A stretch of 64,000 bases of DNA from Isoptericola sp. AK164 (GTDB lineage Bacteria; Actinomycetota; Actinomycetes; Actinomycetales; Cellulomonadaceae): assembly GCF_029643425.1 (NCBI RefSeq), contig NZ_CP119106.1, forward strand, positions 806,001-870,000, given 5' to 3'. Of this stretch, positions 24,332-38,830 are shown in pieces. The position numbers were made by a program, and so were the translations under genes. How positions within the stretch are numbered: the stretch's first letter is position 1; the number at the start of each line of letters is the position of its first letter. The notes beneath the pieces were generated by a model. It saw only the letters and a program-made list of their open reading frames with translations. It had not been told where the DNA came from and searched no databases.

Positions 24332-25584
24332 CGGGGGGCTCCGTCGGGGGTGCGGGGGTCGGGTGCGCGGGGCGGGAACCGGCGGGGGTCCGTCGCCCGC
24401 AGGGCGGCGAGCACGGCCGGTGGGTCCGTCGTGGCGACGTCGACGGCGAACCAGGAGCGGGTCAGCCCGGCCACGACGACCTCCGCGGTCAGCGGCGCGA
24501 GCAGGATGCCGTTGCGGTAGTGGCCGGTGGCCAGGTGCAGTCCGGGCACGTGCGTCGCGCCCACCAGGGGCAGGTTGTCCGGCGTGGACGGCCGGGCCCG
24601 CGGGGTGGCCTCGACCAGTGCGGCCTCGTCGATCGCGGGCAGCAGGGCGCGCGCGTCGCGCAGGAGGGCGAACACGCCGCCGGCGGGTGCGCGACGGTCG
24701 TCGGGGTTCTCCTCGGAGGTCGCGCCGATCACCAGCTCGCAGTGCCCGGCCCACGGCCCCTCGGTCGCGGGCTCGCGTCCGACGACGTACACGGGCCGGC
24801 CCTGGACCAGACCGCGCACGACGTGGCGCGGTGCCAGCTCGGGGTCCGCCTGCAGCCGCAGCGTGAGGCCCTTGACCGGACGCACGGGGACCGCCACGCC
24901 GGGCACCTCCGCCAGCAGCGGGGCGGACGCCCACCCGGCGGCGACGACGGTCGAGCCGGCGCGGTGCCGGTCGCCGGTGTCGTCGACGGCCCCGACGACC
25001 CGGCCGTCCTGCTGCTCGAGCCGGACCGCGGCACGCGGCACGACGGCGCCGCGGGAGTGGGCGGCCACGACGCGCCAGAGCGCGGCGTGCACGGCCCGGG
25101 GGTCGACGGCGTGGTCGCCGGGGACCCAGGCGGCTCCGCGCACGCGCTGGCCGAGCAGCGGTTCGCGCCGGCGCGCCTCGGCGATCGTCAGCTCCTCGGA
25201 GTCCACCCCGTGCCGGCCGTGCAGGGCCAGGACCCGGCGCAGCAGGGCGACGTCGGTCTCGTCGTAGCCGAGCGTCAGCGTCCCGGACTCGCGCAGCCCC
25301 ACGCCGCGGCCGGCGGCGGCCTCCAGGTCGGCGGCGAACGGGAGCCAGCGTGCGGCCCCGGCCAGGTGCAGGTGCAGCGCGGCGTCCTCGGTGAACTCGG
25401 CCTCGGTGGCCGGCGCGAGCATGCCCGCGGCGGCGTGCGTGGACCCGTCGCCGGGGTCCGGGTCCAGGACGGTGACGCTCAGGCCGCCCTCGAGGGCCCG
25501 CCAGGCCACGGCCAGGCCGATGATGCCGCCGCCGACCACGACGAGGTCGCGGACGCCGTGCGGCGCCGACGAGTGACGGTCCAC
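24328..25584 (-). CDS. thiO: Glycine oxidase ThiO
   Basis: FAD-dependent amine oxidase making dehydroglycine for the thiazole ring in aerobes. The 418-residue protein has the FAD loop [21 protein letters not shown] at its N-terminus, [10 protein letters not shown], and the C-terminal [17 protein letters not shown] that closes the FAD site. The start is GTG 25584, whose Shine-Dalgarno (AGGGAG) belongs to the 3' strand of the TPP riboswitch. First gene of thiO-thiS-thiG. Confidence 0.93.
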
Positions 25585-25668
25585 GGTGCTCCCTTCGCTG
25601 GCATGATCCAGATCAGGTTCGACGGTCGGCGCCGTGCGCCCTCTCAGCCCCTGCGGGCTCCCGTGCTC
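25585..25668 (-). promoter_or_regulatory. TPP riboswitch (THI element) upstream of thiO
   Basis: On the minus strand the conserved THI blocks are clear: GGGAGCCC, CTGAGAGGG, then ACCGTCGAACCTGATCTGG and ATCATGCCAGCGAAGGGA. P1 can pair CACGG with CCGTG, and the second strand includes the thiO GTG codon. The GGGAG that closes the aptamer is also the Shine-Dalgarno, so TPP binding should occlude initiation directly. Confidence 0.93.
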
Positions 25669-25673
25669 CGGTC

Positions 25674-25679
25674 ACCCTA
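25674..25679 (-). promoter_or_regulatory. -10 element of the thiOSG transcript
   Basis: Minus-strand TAGGGT ends about six bases before the aptamer begins, so the RNA would start right at the riboswitch with no extra leader. Confidence 0.5.
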
Positions 25680-33442: not shown

Positions 33443-34210
33443 TCAGCGTGCGGCGCGGTACCGGTCGACCACGATCTCGACCAGCTCGGGGGGCGCCGGG
33501 GCGTCGGCCGGCAGCAGCGGCGGCGTCGTGAGGTCGCCACCGGCGCGCTCGGCCAGCGTCTGGAAGTAGCCCGGCGCGATGAGGTAGCTCGCGGTGACGA
33601 TCCGGGCGTCCGGGTGCTCGAGGCGGACGGACCCGACGACGTCGGCGAGCTGCGGGGTGGCGTTGGCGAGGTAGCCGACGCGGACCGGGTGCCCGGTGCG
33701 CTCGGCGAGCAGGATCCCGGTGCGCTCGCAGTCGGCGACCGCCCGGGCGTCGGACGAGCCGGCCGCGGCGAGGACGACGACGTCGCCCTCGGTCAGCCCC
33801 GCCTCGGCGAGCCGGCGCTCGAGCAGGTCCACCAGCCGGGTGTCGGGGCCCAGCGCCCCGGCGAGCGTGACGTGCTGACCGTCCGCGAGGGCTGCGTCGA
33901 CGTCCTCGCGCAGGTCGACGTGCACGTGGAAGCCGGCCGAGAGCAGCAGCGGCACGAGCACCGTGGAGGTCTCGCGCAGGTCGGCCAGGCACGTCGGGAC
34001 GTCGGGCTGCTGGACGTCCACGAAACCGGCCCGGACCGGGGCCTCGCCGTCCAGCCGGTCGGCCACGGCGTCGACGAGTCCGGCGACGGCGGACGCGCCG
34101 ACGTCCGAGGACGTGCCGTGGGAGATCGCGAGAAGCGTCGGGGCTGCCATGGTGGGCACGCTACGCGTCGGATCGTTCGTCCCGGTGTCGACCGTGTCAC
34201 CGCGTGTCAC
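33443..34210 (-). CDS. Sirohydrochlorin chelatase-like protein (CbiX/SirB family)
   Basis: A 255-residue two-repeat chelatase. The first half has LLAISHGTSSDVGASAVAGL and VPLLLSAGFHVHVDL, the metal-binding His and the family HGS-like motif; the second half repeats the fold (VVLAAAGSSDARAV, IVTASYLIAPGYF). It would insert iron into sirohydrochlorin to make sirohaem for the sulfite reductase of the same operon. GTG 34210 overlaps the cysG stop (GTGA). ATG 34150, immediately before AAPTLLAISHG, is an alternative that lacks a Shine-Dalgarno. Confidence 0.85.
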   Translation of the reverse strand: MTRGDTVDTGTNDPTRSVPTMAAPTLLAISHGTSSDVGASAVAGLVDAVADRLDGEAPVRAGFVDVQQPDVPTCLADLRETSTVLVPLLLSAGFHVHVDLREDVDAALADGQHVTLAGALGPDTRLVDLLERRLAEAGLTEGDVVVLAAAGSSDARAVADCERTGILLAERTGHPVRVGYLANATPQLADVVGSVRLEHPDARIVTASYLIAPGYFQTLAERAGGDLTTPPLLPADAPAPPELVEIVVDRYRAAR

Positions 34211-35454
34211 GACTCGCTCACACCCTCCGCGGCCGTGACGTGAGCCGCCCAGGCCGGCGACAGCCGGACGACGTCGCCGACGACGGTCACGGCGGGCGGG
34301 CGGACCTCGGCCGCGGCGGCCCGCTCGGCGATGTCGGCCAGCGTGCCGACGGTGGTCCGCTGGCGCGGTCCGAAGCCGTCCTCGACCACCGCGACGGGGG
34401 TGTCGGCCGGGCGGCCGGCCTCGACCAGCGCCCGGGTGGTCGTGGCGAGCCGGGTGACGCCCATGAGCAGCACCAGGGTGTGCTCCGGACCGCCGGGCAC
34501 GGAGGCGACGGCCTCGTGCGCGGTCAGCACGCTGAACCCGGCCGCCACCCCGCGGTGCGTCACCGGGATCCCGGCCGCGGCGGGGACGGAGACGGCCGAG
34601 GTCACGCCCGGCACCACCTCGACGTCGAGCCCGGCCGCGCGGCAGGCGGCGAGCTCCTCGCCGCCGCGCCCCAGCACGTACGGGTCGCCGCCCTTGAGGC
34701 GGACGACCTGCCGGCCGGCGAGGGCGTGCTCGACGAGCAGCTCGTTGATGCGCTCCTGCGGCACCGGGTGGTTCCCGGCGGTCTTGCCCACGTCGATCAC
34801 CTCGACGTCGTCGGCGAGCGTGGTCAGGACGCTGCGCGGGGCGAGCCGGTCGACGACGACGACGTCGGCGCTCGCCAGGAGGCGTCGGCCGCGTCCGGTG
34901 AGCAGCCCGGGGTCCCCGGGGCCGCCGCCGACCAGGGCCACCCGGCCGGGGCCCGGTGCGTCCGTCGGCCGGACGCGGCGCAGCGGCAGCTCCCCGGCGT
35001 CCAGGGCCGCCGCGACGCCGTCGCGCAGCCGGGCGGCACGGCGCGGGTCACGACCGGCGTGCACGGAGACGACGACGTCGCCCTCGGGCCCGGGCAGCCC
35101 GGCCGAGGCGGGGACCCAGGCCGTGGCGGCCGCGGCGTCGGCGGCGACGACGCAGAAGGTCTGCTGTGCCTCGGCGTCGGCCGCCACGGCCCGGTCGACG
35201 TCCCCGACGCCGGTGGCGGTGTGCACGACCCACGCGCCGTCCAGGTCGCCGGACCGGTAGGCGCGGGCCGCGTGCTCCACCGTCCCGGCGGCGGCCGCGG
35301 CGGCCAGCTCGTCGTCGAGGACGGGGGCCACCACCCGGACGCGCGCCCCGGCCTCGAGCAGGCCGCGGACGCGGCGGGCCGCGACCGGCCCGCCGCCGAC
35401 GACGACGACGAGCCGGTCGCGCACGCGCAGCCCCAGCGGGTACAGGTCACTCAT
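34207..35454 (-). CDS. cysG: Sirohaem synthase: precorrin-2 dehydrogenase + uroporphyrinogen-III methyltransferase
   Basis: A 415-residue bifunctional enzyme. The N-terminal NAD-binding domain (VVVVGGGPVAARRVRGLLEAGARV, residues 15-40) oxidises precorrin-2; the C-terminal SUMT domain starts near residue 165 (RVALVGGGPGDPGLLTGRG) with VVVDRLAP, VRLKGGDPYVLGRGGEE and VVPGVTSAVSVPAAAGIPVTHRG. Chelation may be carried out by the downstream CbiX. GAGGA lies eight bases before ATG 35454, which is 24 bp after cysH. Confidence 0.94.
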   Translation of the reverse strand: MSDLYPLGLRVRDRLVVVVGGGPVAARRVRGLLEAGARVRVVAPVLDDELAAAAAAGTVEHAARAYRSGDLDGAWVVHTATGVGDVDRAVAADAEAQQTFCVVAADAAAATAWVPASAGLPGPEGDVVVSVHAGRDPRRAARLRDGVAAALDAGELPLRRVRPTDAPGPGRVALVGGGPGDPGLLTGRGRRLLASADVVVVDRLAPRSVLTTLADDVEVIDVGKTAGNHPVPQERINELLVEHALAGRQVVRLKGGDPYVLGRGGEELAACRAAGLDVEVVPGVTSAVSVPAAAGIPVTHRGVAAGFSVLTAHEAVASVPGGPEHTLVLLMGVTRLATTTRALVEAGRPADTPVAVVEDGFGPRQRTTVGTLADIAERAAAAEVRPPAVTVVGDVVRLSPAWAAHVTAAEGVSES

Positions 35455-35478: not shown

Positions 35479-36369
35479 TCAGATGTGCAGACCGCACTCG
35501 GACTTGTCCGCCCCGGCCCAGCGTCCGGCACGGGCGTCCTCGCCGGGACCGACGCGACGGGTGCACGGCTCGCAGCCGATCGACGGGTAGCCGTCGTTGA
35601 GCAGCGGGTTGACGGTCAGCCCGTGGCGCAGCGCGTAGCCGACCAGCTGGTCGTCGCTCCAGCCGGCGATCGGGTTGATCTTGACCAGGTTGTTCGACGC
35701 GTCCCACGAGACGAGCTCGGCGGTGGCGCGCGAGGCGGAGTCCGCCCGCCGGACGCCCGTGGCCCACGCCTCGTACCCGGACAGCACCCGGCGCATCGGC
35801 TCCACCTTGCGCATGCGGCAGCAGGCCTCGGGGTCGCGGGCGAACAGGTCCGGGCCGTAGGCGTCGTCCTGCTCGGCGACGCTGAGCAGCGGCCGCACGT
35901 CCACCACGGTGACGTCGAGGGAGTGCGCGACGGCGTCGCGCGTCCCGATCGTCTCCGCGAAGTGGTAGCCGGTCTCGCCGAACAGCACGTCCACCCAGGG
36001 GAGCTGGGCGCTGACCAGCGCGGCCAGCACGGAGTCCGTCATCGAGGACGCCACCGCGAGGGAGTCGCCGAACTCGGCCACCGCCCAGGCGATGACCTCC
36101 TCGGCGGTCGCCTCGTCCGCGGAGCCCGGTCCGGACCCGCCGAGCTCGCGGCGACCACGCTCGGCGATCTGCGACAGCTCGACGTCCGAGCGCCGGCGAC
36201 GCTCCCGACCGTCGACGCGGGCGTTGCGGCGGGCCCGGGACTTCTCCCGCTCGGCGGCGCGGCGGCGTGCTTCCGCGGCGGCGTCGGCGAGGGACGAGGC
36301 CCCGGCGGGAGCCGTGGAGGTGGCCGCCGAGGTGGGGCCGACCCCGAGGGAGACCGGTACGGCCGTCAC
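35479..36369 (-). CDS. cysH: Adenylylsulfate (APS) reductase, iron-sulfur type
   Basis: Reduces activated sulfate to sulfite. A 296-residue protein with VLFGETGYHFAET, the CC...CxxC cluster ligands (EACCRMRKVEP and IGCEPC) that mark [4Fe-4S] APS reductases, and the catalytic C-terminal ECGLHI. The N-terminus carries an extra Arg/Ala-rich stretch of about 65 residues before the core. GTG 36369 overlaps the sulfite reductase stop (GTGA). No sulfate adenylyltransferase gene is in this operon. Confidence 0.92.
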   Translation of the reverse strand: MTAVPVSLGVGPTSAATSTAPAGASSLADAAAEARRRAAEREKSRARRNARVDGRERRRRSDVELSQIAERGRRELGGSGPGSADEATAEEVIAWAVAEFGDSLAVASSMTDSVLAALVSAQLPWVDVLFGETGYHFAETIGTRDAVAHSLDVTVVDVRPLLSVAEQDDAYGPDLFARDPEACCRMRKVEPMRRVLSGYEAWATGVRRADSASRATAELVSWDASNNLVKINPIAGWSDDQLVGYALRHGLTVNPLLNDGYPSIGCEPCTRRVGPGEDARAGRWAGADKSECGLHI

Positions 36370-38093
36370 TGCAGCACCTCCTCGTCCGCCCGGTGGGCCC
36401 ACTCGGCGAACGACTCGCCGTCGCTGCGGTCCGCCGCGTAGCGGCGCACCACGCGCTCGACGTAGTCGGCGACCTCGGTGGCCGGGACCTTCAGGCCGCG
36501 CACCGTGCGGCCGAGACCGCCGGCGTCGTGACCCTGCCCCGCGAGGCTGCCGCCCAGGTGCACCTGGAAGCCCGCCATCTGCTCGCCGTCGACGGTGATG
36601 ATCTGGCCCTTGAGGCCGATGTCGGCGGTCTGGATGCGGGCGCAGGAGTTGGGGCAGCCGTTGACGTTGAGCGAGATCGGCCGGTCGAGCTGCTCGGCGT
36701 GCTCGTCCAGGCGCTGCTCCAGCTCGGCGATGACGCCGGCGGCGGTGTCCTTGGTGTCGACGATGGCGAGCTTGCAGAACTCGATGCCCGTGCACGCGAT
36801 GGTGTTGCGGCGGAACAACGAGGGCCGCGCCGTCAGGCCCAGCGGCTCGAGGCCGTCGACCAGCTCGTCGACCCGGTCGGCGGGCACGCCGAGGACCACG
36901 ACCTTCTGGTGGGCGGTCAGCCGGGCCGACCGGGCGCCGACGGACTCGACGAGGTCGGCCAGGCCGGTCAGCGTGCCGCCGCCGACACGGCCGACGACGG
37001 GGGCGGCGCCCACGTAGTAGTCGCCGTCCTTCTGCTCGTGGACGCCGACGTGGTCGCCCGGGCGGGTCGCCGGGGCCGGGGGCGGGCCGTCGGGCAGCGC
37101 GTACCCGAGGTACTCGGTCTCGAGAACTCCCCTGAACCGCTCGGCGCCCCAGTCCTTGAGCAGGAACTTCAGGCGAGCCTTGTTCCGCAGCCGGCGGTAC
37201 CCGTAGTCGCGGAAGATGCGGATGACGCCGTACCAGACGTCGGGTGCCTGCTCGGCGGTGACGAAGACGCCGAGGCGCTCGCCGAGGCGCGGGGCGGTGG
37301 ACAGCCCGCCGCCGACCCACAGGTCGAAGCCGGCGCCGAGCTCGGGGTGCTCCACGCCCACCAGGGAGATGTCGTTGATCTCGTGCACGACGTCGAGGCT
37401 CGGGTGGCCGGAGATGGCCGTCTTGAACTTGCGCGGCAGGTTCGCGAGCTCCGGGTCGCCGATGTGCCGCCGCTTGATCTCGTCGATGACGGGCGTGGCG
37501 TCGATGATCTCGTCGGTGGCGATCCCGGCGACGGGGCTGCCGAGGAAGGCGCGCGGGGAGTCGCCGCACGCCGTCGTCGTCTCCAGGCCGACCGTGTCGA
37601 GGCGGCGCCAGATCTCCGGCATGCTCTCGATCTCGATCCAGTGGTACTGGATGTTCTGCCGGTCGGTGATGTCCGCGGTGCCGCGGCCGAACTCGTCCGA
37701 GATCTCGCCGAGGACGCGCAGGGCGGCCGGCGTCAGCTCGGCGCCGTCGGTGCGCACGCGCAGCATGAAGTAGCGGTCCTCGAGCTCGTGCGGCTCGAGG
37801 GTGGCGGTGCGGCCGCCGTCGATGCCGGGCTTGCGCTGGGTGTACAGGCCCCACCAGCGGAAACGGCCGTGCAGGTCGTCGTCGGCGATGGAGTCGAAGC
37901 CGTCGCGCGCGTAGGTCGACTCGATGCGCTCGCGCACCTCGAGCGGCGGGCCGGCCTGCTTGAACTCCTCGTTGTGGTTCAGCGGGGTGGTGCCGTCGAT
38001 CTTCCACTGGCCGTTCGGCTTCGGGGCGCGGGCGGGCCGCGCCGGGCGACCGGCAGCGTTCGGCGGCGCGGGAGGGTTGGTCTGCGTCGTCAT
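36366..38093 (-). CDS. sir: Ferredoxin-dependent sulfite reductase
   Basis: A 575-residue sirohaem/[4Fe-4S] reductase making sulfide from sulfite. Two half-repeats are visible, with RYFMLRVRTDG and DITDRQNIQYHWI early, TTTACGDSPR, and the cluster/sirohaem cysteines in CTGIEFCKL and NGCPNSCARI. Gene context with cysH and sirohaem genes argues for sulfite rather than nitrite. It is the first enzyme gene of the operon, 129 bp downstream of the polycysteine leader ORF. GAGGA lies about 11 bases before ATG 38093 and could be masked by upstream RNA. Confidence 0.93.
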   Translation of the reverse strand: MTTQTNPPAPPNAAGRPARPARAPKPNGQWKIDGTTPLNHNEEFKQAGPPLEVRERIESTYARDGFDSIADDDLHGRFRWWGLYTQRKPGIDGGRTATLEPHELEDRYFMLRVRTDGAELTPAALRVLGEISDEFGRGTADITDRQNIQYHWIEIESMPEIWRRLDTVGLETTTACGDSPRAFLGSPVAGIATDEIIDATPVIDEIKRRHIGDPELANLPRKFKTAISGHPSLDVVHEINDISLVGVEHPELGAGFDLWVGGGLSTAPRLGERLGVFVTAEQAPDVWYGVIRIFRDYGYRRLRNKARLKFLLKDWGAERFRGVLETEYLGYALPDGPPPAPATRPGDHVGVHEQKDGDYYVGAAPVVGRVGGGTLTGLADLVESVGARSARLTAHQKVVVLGVPADRVDELVDGLEPLGLTARPSLFRRNTIACTGIEFCKLAIVDTKDTAAGVIAELEQRLDEHAEQLDRPISLNVNGCPNSCARIQTADIGLKGQIITVDGEQMAGFQVHLGGSLAGQGHDAGGLGRTVRGLKVPATEVADYVERVVRRYAADRSDGESFAEWAHRADEEVLQ

Positions 38094-38110
38094 CTGGGGG
38101 GAGTTCCTCG

Positions 38111-38164
38111 GGTCCTCGGGGCGGGACGCGCGACGACGGGGCTCAGCGGGGGTGGGCCGAGACC
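38111..38164 (-). promoter_or_regulatory. Possible Shine-Dalgarno-sequestering stem before sir
   Basis: In the minus-strand RNA the segment from 38164-38157 (GGUCUCGG) can pair with 38119-38111 (CCGAGGACC), leaving one bulged base. The second segment holds a GAGGA element just upstream of the sir start. The polycysteine leader ends about 60 bases before the stem, so its translation could shift the fold. Confidence 0.35.
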
Positions 38165-38222
38165 GACGGCGCGCGCCGGTGCTCAGGTCCGCAGGTGCGG
38201 AGGGGGCTGAGAGGGGGCGCGA

Positions 38223-38324
38223 TCAGCGACAGCAGCACTGACAGCTGCACATGCACATGTGCATCGGGCACGCCGGCATGGCACGACGGGTCGTCGTGCT
38301 GCGGAGGGGCGCGGCCGTGGTCAT
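38223..38324 (-). CDS. Polycysteine leader peptide of the sulfate assimilation operon
   Basis: A 33-residue leaderless ORF whose last 13 residues are MHMCMCSCQCCCR, with six cysteines, plus one Cys earlier. Minus-strand TAGATT at 38332-38337 ends seven bases before its ATG, so the transcript begins at the start codon. It lies directly upstream of sir-cysH-cysG-cbiX. Mycobacteria have leaderless polycysteine ORFs before the same kind of genes that attenuate expression according to cysteinyl-tRNA supply, and this has the same design. The peptide itself is probably non-functional. Confidence 0.85.
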   Translation of the reverse strand: MTTAAPLRSTTTRRAMPACPMHMCMCSCQCCCR

Positions 38325-38331
38325 GGCGACG

Positions 38332-38337
38332 AATCTA
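38332..38337 (-). promoter_or_regulatory. -10 element of the sulfate assimilation operon
   Basis: Minus-strand TAGATT sits seven bases before the ATG of the polycysteine ORF, making it leaderless. No other good -10 is visible between this point and sir. Confidence 0.65.
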
Positions 38338-38445
38338 ACCCGCGGTGACCATCTCGCGAAACCCCCGGTCCGCATCGTGGGATCCGGGTGACGCTGCGTG
38401 AGACGACGCACGGTCAGGATGGTCTTGCGGGAGCGCGCGCCTCGA

Positions 38446-38451
38446 TAGGCT
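38446..38451 (+). promoter_or_regulatory. -10 element of the 38459 gene (leaderless)
   Basis: TAGGCT ends seven bases before ATG 38459. Confidence 0.6.
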
Positions 38452-38458
38452 GCCTGCC

Positions 38459-38830
38459 ATGGAGTTCCTCTACAACATCTTCACGGTGCTGCACTTCGTC
38501 GGCTGGGCCATCGTCCTCGGCGGCTACCTCGCCTCGCTGCGCAGCCCGGGCCTGTACCGCGGCGTTTTCCACGGGGCGGCGACCGCGCTCGTCGCAGGCA
38601 TCCTGATGGTCGGCGTCGCGGAGATGGGCGGCCTGTGGGAAGACTTCGGGCCGTCGATGGCGAAGATCGGCGTCAAGCTGACGATCGCCCTGGTCATCAC
38701 GATCCTGGCCTTCGTCGCCAAGCGCCAGGGTCGCAAGGGCGACAACGGCACCGGAGCCGTCGCCCCGGCGCTGAAGCACTCGATCGGCGCGCTCGTGCTC
38801 GTCAACATCGTCGTCGCCGTCTTCTGGTGA
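38459..38830 (+). CDS. Small four-helix integral membrane protein
   Basis: A 123-residue protein with about four hydrophobic segments (5-25, 38-58, 70-87 and 103-122) and a basic loop AKRQGRKGDN between the last two. The first helix contains LHFVGWAIVLGGYLA, reminiscent of His-containing small membrane proteins related to haem or copper proteins, but I cannot name a family. It begins with ATG after a TAGGCT box and is followed 46 bp later by the DUF456 gene. Confidence 0.65.
   Translation: MEFLYNIFTVLHFVGWAIVLGGYLASLRSPGLYRGVFHGAATALVAGILMVGVAEMGGLWEDFGPSMAKIGVKLTIALVITILAFVAKRQGRKGDNGTGAVAPALKHSIGALVLVNIVVAVFW

Follow-up and report, generated by a model that had tools for sequence, protein, structure and literature searches.

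Introduction

Cysteine leader peptides were predicted in 2005 for cys operons of Mycobacterium and Propionibacterium acnes and for cbs of Bifidobacterium longum; the accessible parts of that study describe no conserved hairpin that could serve as a terminator, and the mechanism is left open there (Seliverstov 2005, PMC1262725). Cys-rich leaderless open reading frames (ORFs) are described in mycobacteria in the available part of Shell 2015 (PMC4633059), and passages on Canestrari 2020 in two other papers (PMC9031893, PMC13236596) state that cysteine availability regulates the downstream genes in M. smegmatis. In Rhodobacterales, the uORFC-8-2 motif before cysS contains two Cys codons in an upstream ORF, for which ribosome-mediated attenuation is proposed in the available text (PMC8632094). 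Here, a 64,000-nucleotide stretch of the Isoptericola sp. AK164 genome (contig NZ_CP119106.1, positions 806,001 to 870,000; hereafter the window, whose own numbering is used throughout) was analyzed, in which a 33-codon ORF with clustered Cys codons precedes the sulfite reductase gene sir. Judging from the comparisons below, the best explanation, which we consider likely, is that the sir-cysH-cysG-cbiX operon has in this ORF a leader peptide that responds to cysteine; that the locus is a cysteine attenuator, whatever its mechanism, appears highly probable.

Like the leaders predicted in 2005, the Isoptericola leader is a short ORF in front of cysteine genes, has a run of Cys codons close to its stop and lacks a terminator; it differs from them, as far as they are described in the accessible text (PMC1262725), in its covarying helix beside the Shine-Dalgarno sequence. 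With the mycobacterial polycysteine attenuators it shares the traits of a functional class, Cys codons clustered near the stop and a position before cysteine-pathway genes. The uORFC-8-2 motif, in contrast, is described in the part of PMC8632094 at hand as having an intrinsic terminator and a dominance of UGC, and it belongs to another phylum and precedes another gene. Because position, Cys cluster, UGU codon and logic agree while the profiles of known families miss the peptide, the leader probably works like the mycobacterial Cys attenuators, as a variant of them; its status as a homologue is not proven.

Results

A cysteine-rich leader ORF is conserved upstream of sir

The leader ORF lies on the minus strand (38223..38324), begins with the ATG at 38324 and encodes MTTAAPLRSTTTRRAMPACPMHMCMCSCQCCCR in 33 codons followed by a TGA that ends at 38223. 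The peptide ends in CMCSCQCCCR; its Cys tract, codons 24-32, occupies 38229..38255, and the last Cys codon (38231-38229) is UGU. A -10-like box, TAGATT (38332..38337, minus strand), stands 7 nt (38331-38325) from the leader ATG, while the gap between the leader stop and the sir ATG (38093) is 129 nt (38222-38094). The ORF, the box and both spacings had been described by a reading made from the sequence alone (the sequence-only reading), and the coordinates were confirmed here. From the box-to-ATG spacing, the 5' end of the transcript is predicted to coincide with the leader ATG, which would make the ORF leaderless. A sigma-70 two-hexamer scan of 38050-38480 found no promoter.

To establish how widely such leaders occur, a strict rule was defined, requiring 14-45 codons, at least three Cys in the last 16 codons, and a TANNNT box 4-10 nt before an ATG or GTG. 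It was applied to 119 sir loci, comprising 39 relatives and 80 further family members; 111 of the loci (31 + 80) belong to the family and eight come from other families of the order. The family loci represent one upstream region for each of 111 of the 160 family genomes with sir, the remaining 49 being left out. A strict Cys leader was found ahead of sir in 69 of the 119 loci, compared with 1 of 2,360 dinucleotide shuffles, from which one locus with too short an upstream region was omitted, and 0 of 119 antisense sequences. The Cys leader thus occurs beyond chance. The distance from the -10 box to the start codon was nearly constant in the strict leaders (7 nt in 60, 6 nt in 7 and 8 nt in 2). 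The sequence-only reading had named a missing Cys cluster in close relatives as an observation that would refute it, and this refutation fails: the Cys end is kept in all 18 Isoptericola genomes available for comparison, with the entire ORF present in 17 and a CCCR end visible in the 18th, which is cut by a contig end.

A second group of family loci carries a Cys leader in 21/21 cases (20 of the large genus g137 and one of g17) under a looser rule that does not demand a -10 box and has no shuffle control; three further g137 loci (L116, L117 and L121) have a leader unlike the 20 counted. Another 21 family loci fit neither rule. Among them, L025 is cut by a contig end with the CCCR end still visible, L117, L123 and L130 have Cys-containing ORFs that miss one criterion, and the other 17 were taken no further. 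Outside the family, Cys leaders are patchy: candidates were seen by eye in five of the eight loci from other families. L036 and L039 each have two Cys, L038 and L040 a leader of the RRHVDL type, and L043 a Cys-rich ORF. In a set of 80 named sir loci, 78 of them with upstream DNA, the strict rule fits seven, namely one Isoptericola, two Sanguibacter, two Cellulosimicrobium, one Oerskovia and an Actinomycetales bin.

At 37 of these 78 named loci, including Arthrobacter, Terrabacter and Intrasporangium, sir itself begins 4-10 nt after a TANNNT box, a count that has no chance control. In these loci (for example L177, L182-L185, L188 and L192) sir appears, from this spacing, to be leaderless, and the strict rule gave no leader ORF ahead of it.

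From genus to genus the peptide body of the leaders changes; the Cys end, the spacing and the position before sir are retained. This bears on whether the product of the ORF is itself a working Cys-rich small protein, either metal binding or a peptide precursor, to which the proximity of sir would be secondary. The several Cys in MCMCSCQCCCR resemble metal-binding tails, and one relative gave a sub-threshold match to a ribosomally synthesized and posttranslationally modified peptide family (E 0.27). Yet the window peptide matched nothing in NCBIfam (up to E 10) or Pfam, its body is unconserved between genera, the number of Cys in the last 16 codons ranges from 3 to 8, and a synonymous codon, UGU, is fixed. 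We therefore regard a small-protein function as extremely unlikely.

Searched against its own genome, the leader peptide gave only weak matches elsewhere (best E 0.47). The pattern of three Cys, any residue and a stop occurs at 10 places in this genome and likewise at 10 in a reversed control, and it did not show a second Cys leader, four of the remaining places having short GTG-started frames whose surroundings were left unread. The other genomic copy of the identical 15-nt tail (L240) was rejected as a candidate, as it has no in-frame ATG or GTG start and lies inside a 307-amino-acid gene-like ORF.

The last cysteine codon of the leader is UGU

The last Cys codon is UGU in 69/69 strict leaders, in 21/21 leaders of the second group and in 15/15 leaders of the Ms4527A type described below, for which 15 of 16 loci fitted the motif pattern. 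The background is the reverse. In the sir genes of 39 loci, an unfiltered sample, UGU accounts for 3 of 205 Cys codons and UGC for 202; within the window, UGU makes up 7 of 112 Cys codons in 38 gene-like ORFs, which were chosen by a high third-position G+C filter and are biased toward TGC, and TGT is found at 0 of 16 Cys codons in five window genes. The preference is confined to the end of the leader, with TGT:TGC ratios of 51:18 at the second Cys from the end and 34:35 at the third and a shift to TGC away from the stop. Other two-fold codons ending in a pyrimidine in the 69 leaders have C in 138 cases and T in 2. Fixation of a synonymous codon points to decoding, and the decoding of the last Cys codon itself seems to be under selection.

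A similar pattern was found in RRHVDL-type leaders of other actinobacterial families (L060-L073 and L246-L285), in many of which the motif is followed by just one Cys. TGT serves as the last Cys codon in 11/12 and 34/38 of these, figures that stand without a codon background from their own genomes, and the Cys aligned with the conserved Cys is TGT in 12/12 and 36/37, a position that was picked after the sequences had been inspected; 12 of 14 and 38 of 40 loci, respectively, fitted the pattern. One possible reading is a rule common to actinobacterial cysteine attenuators, in which the Cys codon that matters, the one beside the stop, would almost always be UGU, against a background that in this family is close to pure UGC. 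Supply would then be sensed through the speed at which the Cys tRNA reads UGU by wobble, the waiting ribosome would cover the RNA just past the stop, and the peptide, the ORF body and the downstream RNA would be replaceable by unrelated sequences in each lineage. We put this rule forward tentatively, as somewhat short of an even proposition. In a literature search on UGU and cysteine attenuation, which did not reach the text of Canestrari 2020, the term UGU codon was met for cysS of Rhodobacterales alone, where UGC dominates, in the parts of the sources that were accessible.

UGU could instead be fixed by RNA pairing or another sequence constraint rather than by slow decoding. In Isoptericola and Cellulosimicrobium, the region of the Cys end can indeed pair downstream (GCUGA:UCAGC at the stop); against this, UGU is fixed even though the surrounding and downstream RNA differs among Isoptericola, Sanguibacter, the second group and the Ms4527A type, and we judge a pairing constraint to be rather unlikely. 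The same codon counts bear on translational coupling or mRNA protection alone, by which the leaderless ORF would deliver ribosomes or shield the 5' end and its Cys codons would set a constant low rate without acting as a sensor. Coupling for small leaderless ORFs is discussed in the accessible part of Shell 2015 (PMC4633059), but simple coupling would not be expected to reach across the 129 nt from the end of the ORF to sir. In addition, UGU and the Cys cluster are preserved while the remainder of the peptide varies, making this explanation very unlikely. A leader peptide that responds to cysteine supply remains our preferred reading of the ORF.

RNA elements between the leader and sir

Four elements were delineated in the RNA between the leader and sir, all on the minus strand. 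Element 1, CGCGCC (38216..38221), comes right after the stop codon and is the proposed partner of element 2 unless a ribosome covers it. It was found within the first 12 nt past the stop in 58 of 67 leaders, compared with an expectation of 3.6% from shuffles; these 67 are the strict leaders whose intergenic lengths were in range for this test and for the single-locus helix test given below. Element 2, GGCGCGCG (38170..38177), was identified by alignment and by a model-free helix search. Element 3, CGCGCGUC (38125..38132), pairs with element 2, and its 3' end can alternatively pair, by eye, with the Shine-Dalgarno region. Element 4, recognized in the sequence and in the leader alignment, is the tandem Shine-Dalgarno-like GAGGACCCGAGGAAC (38103..38117).

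Helix 2:3 carries compensatory changes. In an alignment of 38 rows placed by a covariance model, two-sided changes affect six pairs and 16 cells of the helix and its inner stem, compared with a shuffled mean of 1.8 cells, and 0 of 500 shuffles scored as high. Searched over 100 of the 119 loci, the covariance model places the helix before sir in distant loci (L126, L128, L129 and L087 at E ≤ 0.002; L020 at E 0.065). Weaker matches of the RNA model were seen in L085, L028 and L086 (E 0.15-0.21), which gave no strict Cys leader; these matches are on par with chance rows. In the model-free search of 27 chosen loci, helix 2:3 ranked first in 15 and within the top three in 19. The letters of the helix vary widely, as in GACCAGCGCG:CGCGCUGGUC, GGCACGCG:CGCGUGCC and GGGCGCGCG:CGCGUGCCC, with examples from Sanguibacter (L082) and other genera.

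Pairing of the Shine-Dalgarno region was assessed by eye. In the window, GGUC.UCGG can pair with CCGAGGACC, and the pairing GGUCCUCGG:CCGAGGACC is perfect in L009. The 3' part of element 3 overlaps the Shine-Dalgarno complement in L083 (CCUCGUG:CACGAGG), L074 (CCUUGAG:CUCGAGG), L124 (CCUUGAU:AUCGAGG) and Isoptericola (GUCC:GGAC). With this overlap the region is laid out as a switch with three alternative pairings would be (1:2, 2:3 and 3:4). What comparison among the loci shows is the ORF with its Cys cluster, UGU codon and spacing, the conservation of element 1 and the compensatory changes in helix 2:3.

No intrinsic terminator with a U run was found ahead of sir, and the locus lacks this hallmark of a classical transcription attenuator. 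The absence fits an alternative in which the leader acts through Rho-dependent termination in a C-rich stretch before sir, a stalled ribosome shielding or reshaping the Rho loading region and letting transcription continue. The stretch past the leader stop is partly C-rich, and Rho has been proposed for mycobacterial cys leaders in the available text of Seliverstov 2005 (PMC1262725). The conserved blocks past the stop (CGCGCC and helix 2:3) are, however, G+C-rich, structured and just ahead of the Shine-Dalgarno sequence, which is a better fit to control of translation; a Rho-dependent mechanism is in our view unlikely.

A further hairpin was detected within the leader ORF itself (codons 9-15; 38281..38299, minus strand), in which four of six pairs are changed on both sides among 29 aligned leaders. 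Four such pairs are attained by 30 of 500 shuffles, whereas neither its 20 cells nor its covariation score is attained by any of 500. The hairpin sits upstream of a ribosome on the Cys tract.

Proposed mechanism and equilibrium folding

In the mechanism that we propose for control of sir translation, transcription would begin at or beside the leader ATG, and a ribosome would load at the 5' end and translate as far as the run of Cys codons. A shortage of Cys-tRNA would make it wait at the last of these, chiefly at the invariant UGU. The front edge of a ribosome lies about 15 nt ahead of its P site. The waiting ribosome would cover element 1 just past the stop, leaving element 2 free to pair with element 3, so that the Shine-Dalgarno region (element 4) would be open and sir translated. 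With plentiful cysteine, the ribosome would finish and depart, 1:2 would form, the 3' end of element 3 would pair with the Shine-Dalgarno region, and sir translation would drop. In this scheme, we infer that the start is leaderless, that the ribosome stalls, which way the switch works, and that 1:2 and 3:4 are alternative pairings.

Several observations weigh against this scheme. The alignment behind the covariation counts was fitted to the structure and includes one chance antisense row, and one of its five shuffle measures, further pair types, was attained by 33 of 500 shuffles. L087, a locus without a strict Cys leader, nonetheless matches the RNA model ahead of sir (E 0.0017). Helix 2:3 fell outside the top three in 8 of the 27 chosen loci, the best helix beat shuffles of its own locus at the 5% level in 23 of 67 loci, and L014 has no GGUCCUC segment. 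A ribosome at the stop codon would likewise cover element 1. Equilibrium partition-function folding gave no clean switch: the mean accessibility of the Shine-Dalgarno sequence in 29 loci was 0.49 with the whole leader and 0.51-0.53 with ribosome edges, the corresponding values in 16 more distant loci were 0.42 and 0.45-0.49, and masking of element 1 raised the probability of 2:3 only from 0.20 to 0.24 in 17 loci. In the window itself this probability was 0.01, whether element 1 was masked or not. An opening of the Shine-Dalgarno sequence by ribosome position alone at equilibrium was thus looked for by folding and not seen.

Other folding results are consistent with the scheme. In nascent RNA ending just past element 2, 1:2 forms with a mean probability of 0.87 across 17 loci (0.04 in one), a value that has no shuffle control, and removal of element 2 leaves most of the Shine-Dalgarno core in pairs (mean free, 0.29). 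The switch may be a kinetic one. Of the claims made by the sequence-only reading, a leader stem that pairs with the Shine-Dalgarno region of sir is present by eye, but folding shows no opening with a ribosome on the Cys tract; release of the sir start by stalling fits the anatomy and finds no clean switch at equilibrium. We hold the exact arrangement of 1:2, 2:3 and 3:4 as a possibility a little below even.

Relation to described cysteine leader families

Of the 246 genomes of the class, 166 had matches to NF042936 ("Ms4527A family Cys-rich leader peptide"), mostly below the cut-off; 14 genomes had one above it. All 14 belong to family f22, which, going by its name, is the mycobacterial family, and leaders of the form (M/V)T...LVARRHVDFKRVCSCCCLP lie directly before sir in this family (L044-L059). 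The window leader occupies the same position, directly upstream of sir, and shares with the mycobacterial sir leaders a short ORF, a Cys run near the stop and UGU as the last Cys codon. The window peptide nevertheless falls short of the 45-bit cut-off, with no match up to E 10 and none in its own genome at E 0.1; it has no RRHVD motif, and the profile-profile match is weak (probability 31%). The RNA past the stop also differs, with CAGCUGGC and, in several, GCCAGCUCCUU blocks in NF042936 leaders, compared with CGCGCC and GGCGCGCG in the window. The profile comparison thus leaves homology between the window peptide and the Ms4527A leaders unproven.

NF042934 ("putative leader peptide," 27-bit cut-off) had no match to the window peptide and none in its own genome at E 1; in 6 of 14 control genomes it gave matches below the cut-off. 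The LVTxRH of many relatives resembles, by eye, the LVxRRH of these RRHVDL leaders, whose conserved Cys is nearly always UGU. Homology of NF042934 and window-type peptides is likewise unproven.

Two side observations concern other genomes. In G065, G124, G183, G193 and G212, NF042936-like matches are paired on opposite strands, about 50 to 1,000 bases apart, as if they were divergent Cys leaders for two operons. The leader of metNIQ in S. lividans, "metL," is leaderless and is described as methionine dependent in the accessible portion of PMC8079986; it ends in RCMCRRMCAF, with three Cys, and from this ending might also be a cysteine leader.

The operon and an upstream NdgR-like site

The four genes downstream of the leader are codirectional on the minus strand, with short or overlapping junctions. 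Sulfite reductase (sir, 36366..38093; NIR_SIR) is followed by the PAPS/APS reductase gene cysH (35479..36369; Pfam), whose GTG start overlaps the sir stop, by the sirohaem synthase gene cysG (34207..35454; TP_methylase and NAD_binding_7 in Pfam) and by a cbiX/sirB chelatase gene (33443..34210; Pfam). 4-nt GTGA overlaps occur at sir/cysH and, in the longest frames, at cysG/cbiX.

A palindrome-like sequence, TCCCACGATGCGGAC (38368..38382, minus strand), has its center some 51 nt ahead of the predicted transcription start and agrees with the 15-bp NdgR motif (PMC4340878) at 13 of 15 positions by our own count. In Streptomyces coelicolor, NdgR binds before leuB, cysG and cysH/cysI genes according to the available part of PMC4340878. 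TCCCANNATG[CT]GGAC occurs upstream of sir in 17/17 loci of the genus with upstream DNA. The genome holds two exact copies of TCCCACGATGCGGAC, the other of which (L245) lies 42 nt before a leuB-like isopropylmalate dehydrogenase gene. Motif and context suggest a second, transcriptional layer of control through an NdgR-like site, and the shared TCCCACGATGCGGAC suggests that sulfur assimilation and leucine synthesis may be controlled jointly.

Elsewhere in the window, an Rfam scan gave a TPP riboswitch at 25573-25674 (minus strand), above the gathering score, as its sole match.

Discussion

The core claim of the sequence-only reading, that a leader peptide senses cysteine supply for sir-cysH-cysG-cbiX, gains support from conservation, fixed spacing, the fixed UGU and the conserved RNA elements, with the leaderless start predicted from spacing. 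Its observation was right and its main interpretation probably so. Its claim to extend this type of attenuator beyond mycobacteria is too wide, given that Cys leaders had been predicted in P. acnes and B. longum in 2005, as the accessible text states (PMC1262725), that NF042936 matches, mostly below the cut-off, are spread through the class and that the Ms4527A leaders, too, directly precede sir. What the present analysis adds is the fixation of UGU, the CGCGCC element after the stop and a covarying helix that would compete with Shine-Dalgarno pairing, in a peptide and RNA distinct from known Cys leaders.

Collectively, these findings suggest that a leader peptide makes sulfur assimilation depend on cysteine supply in one more family of Actinobacteria, with a single switch able to span sulfite reductase, PAPS/APS reductase and the sirohaem genes. 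A terminal UGU in a short leaderless ORF offers a simple signature for more cysteine-controlled operons, and the fixed UGU, together with lineage-specific RNA elements, makes the mechanism testable by single-codon changes.

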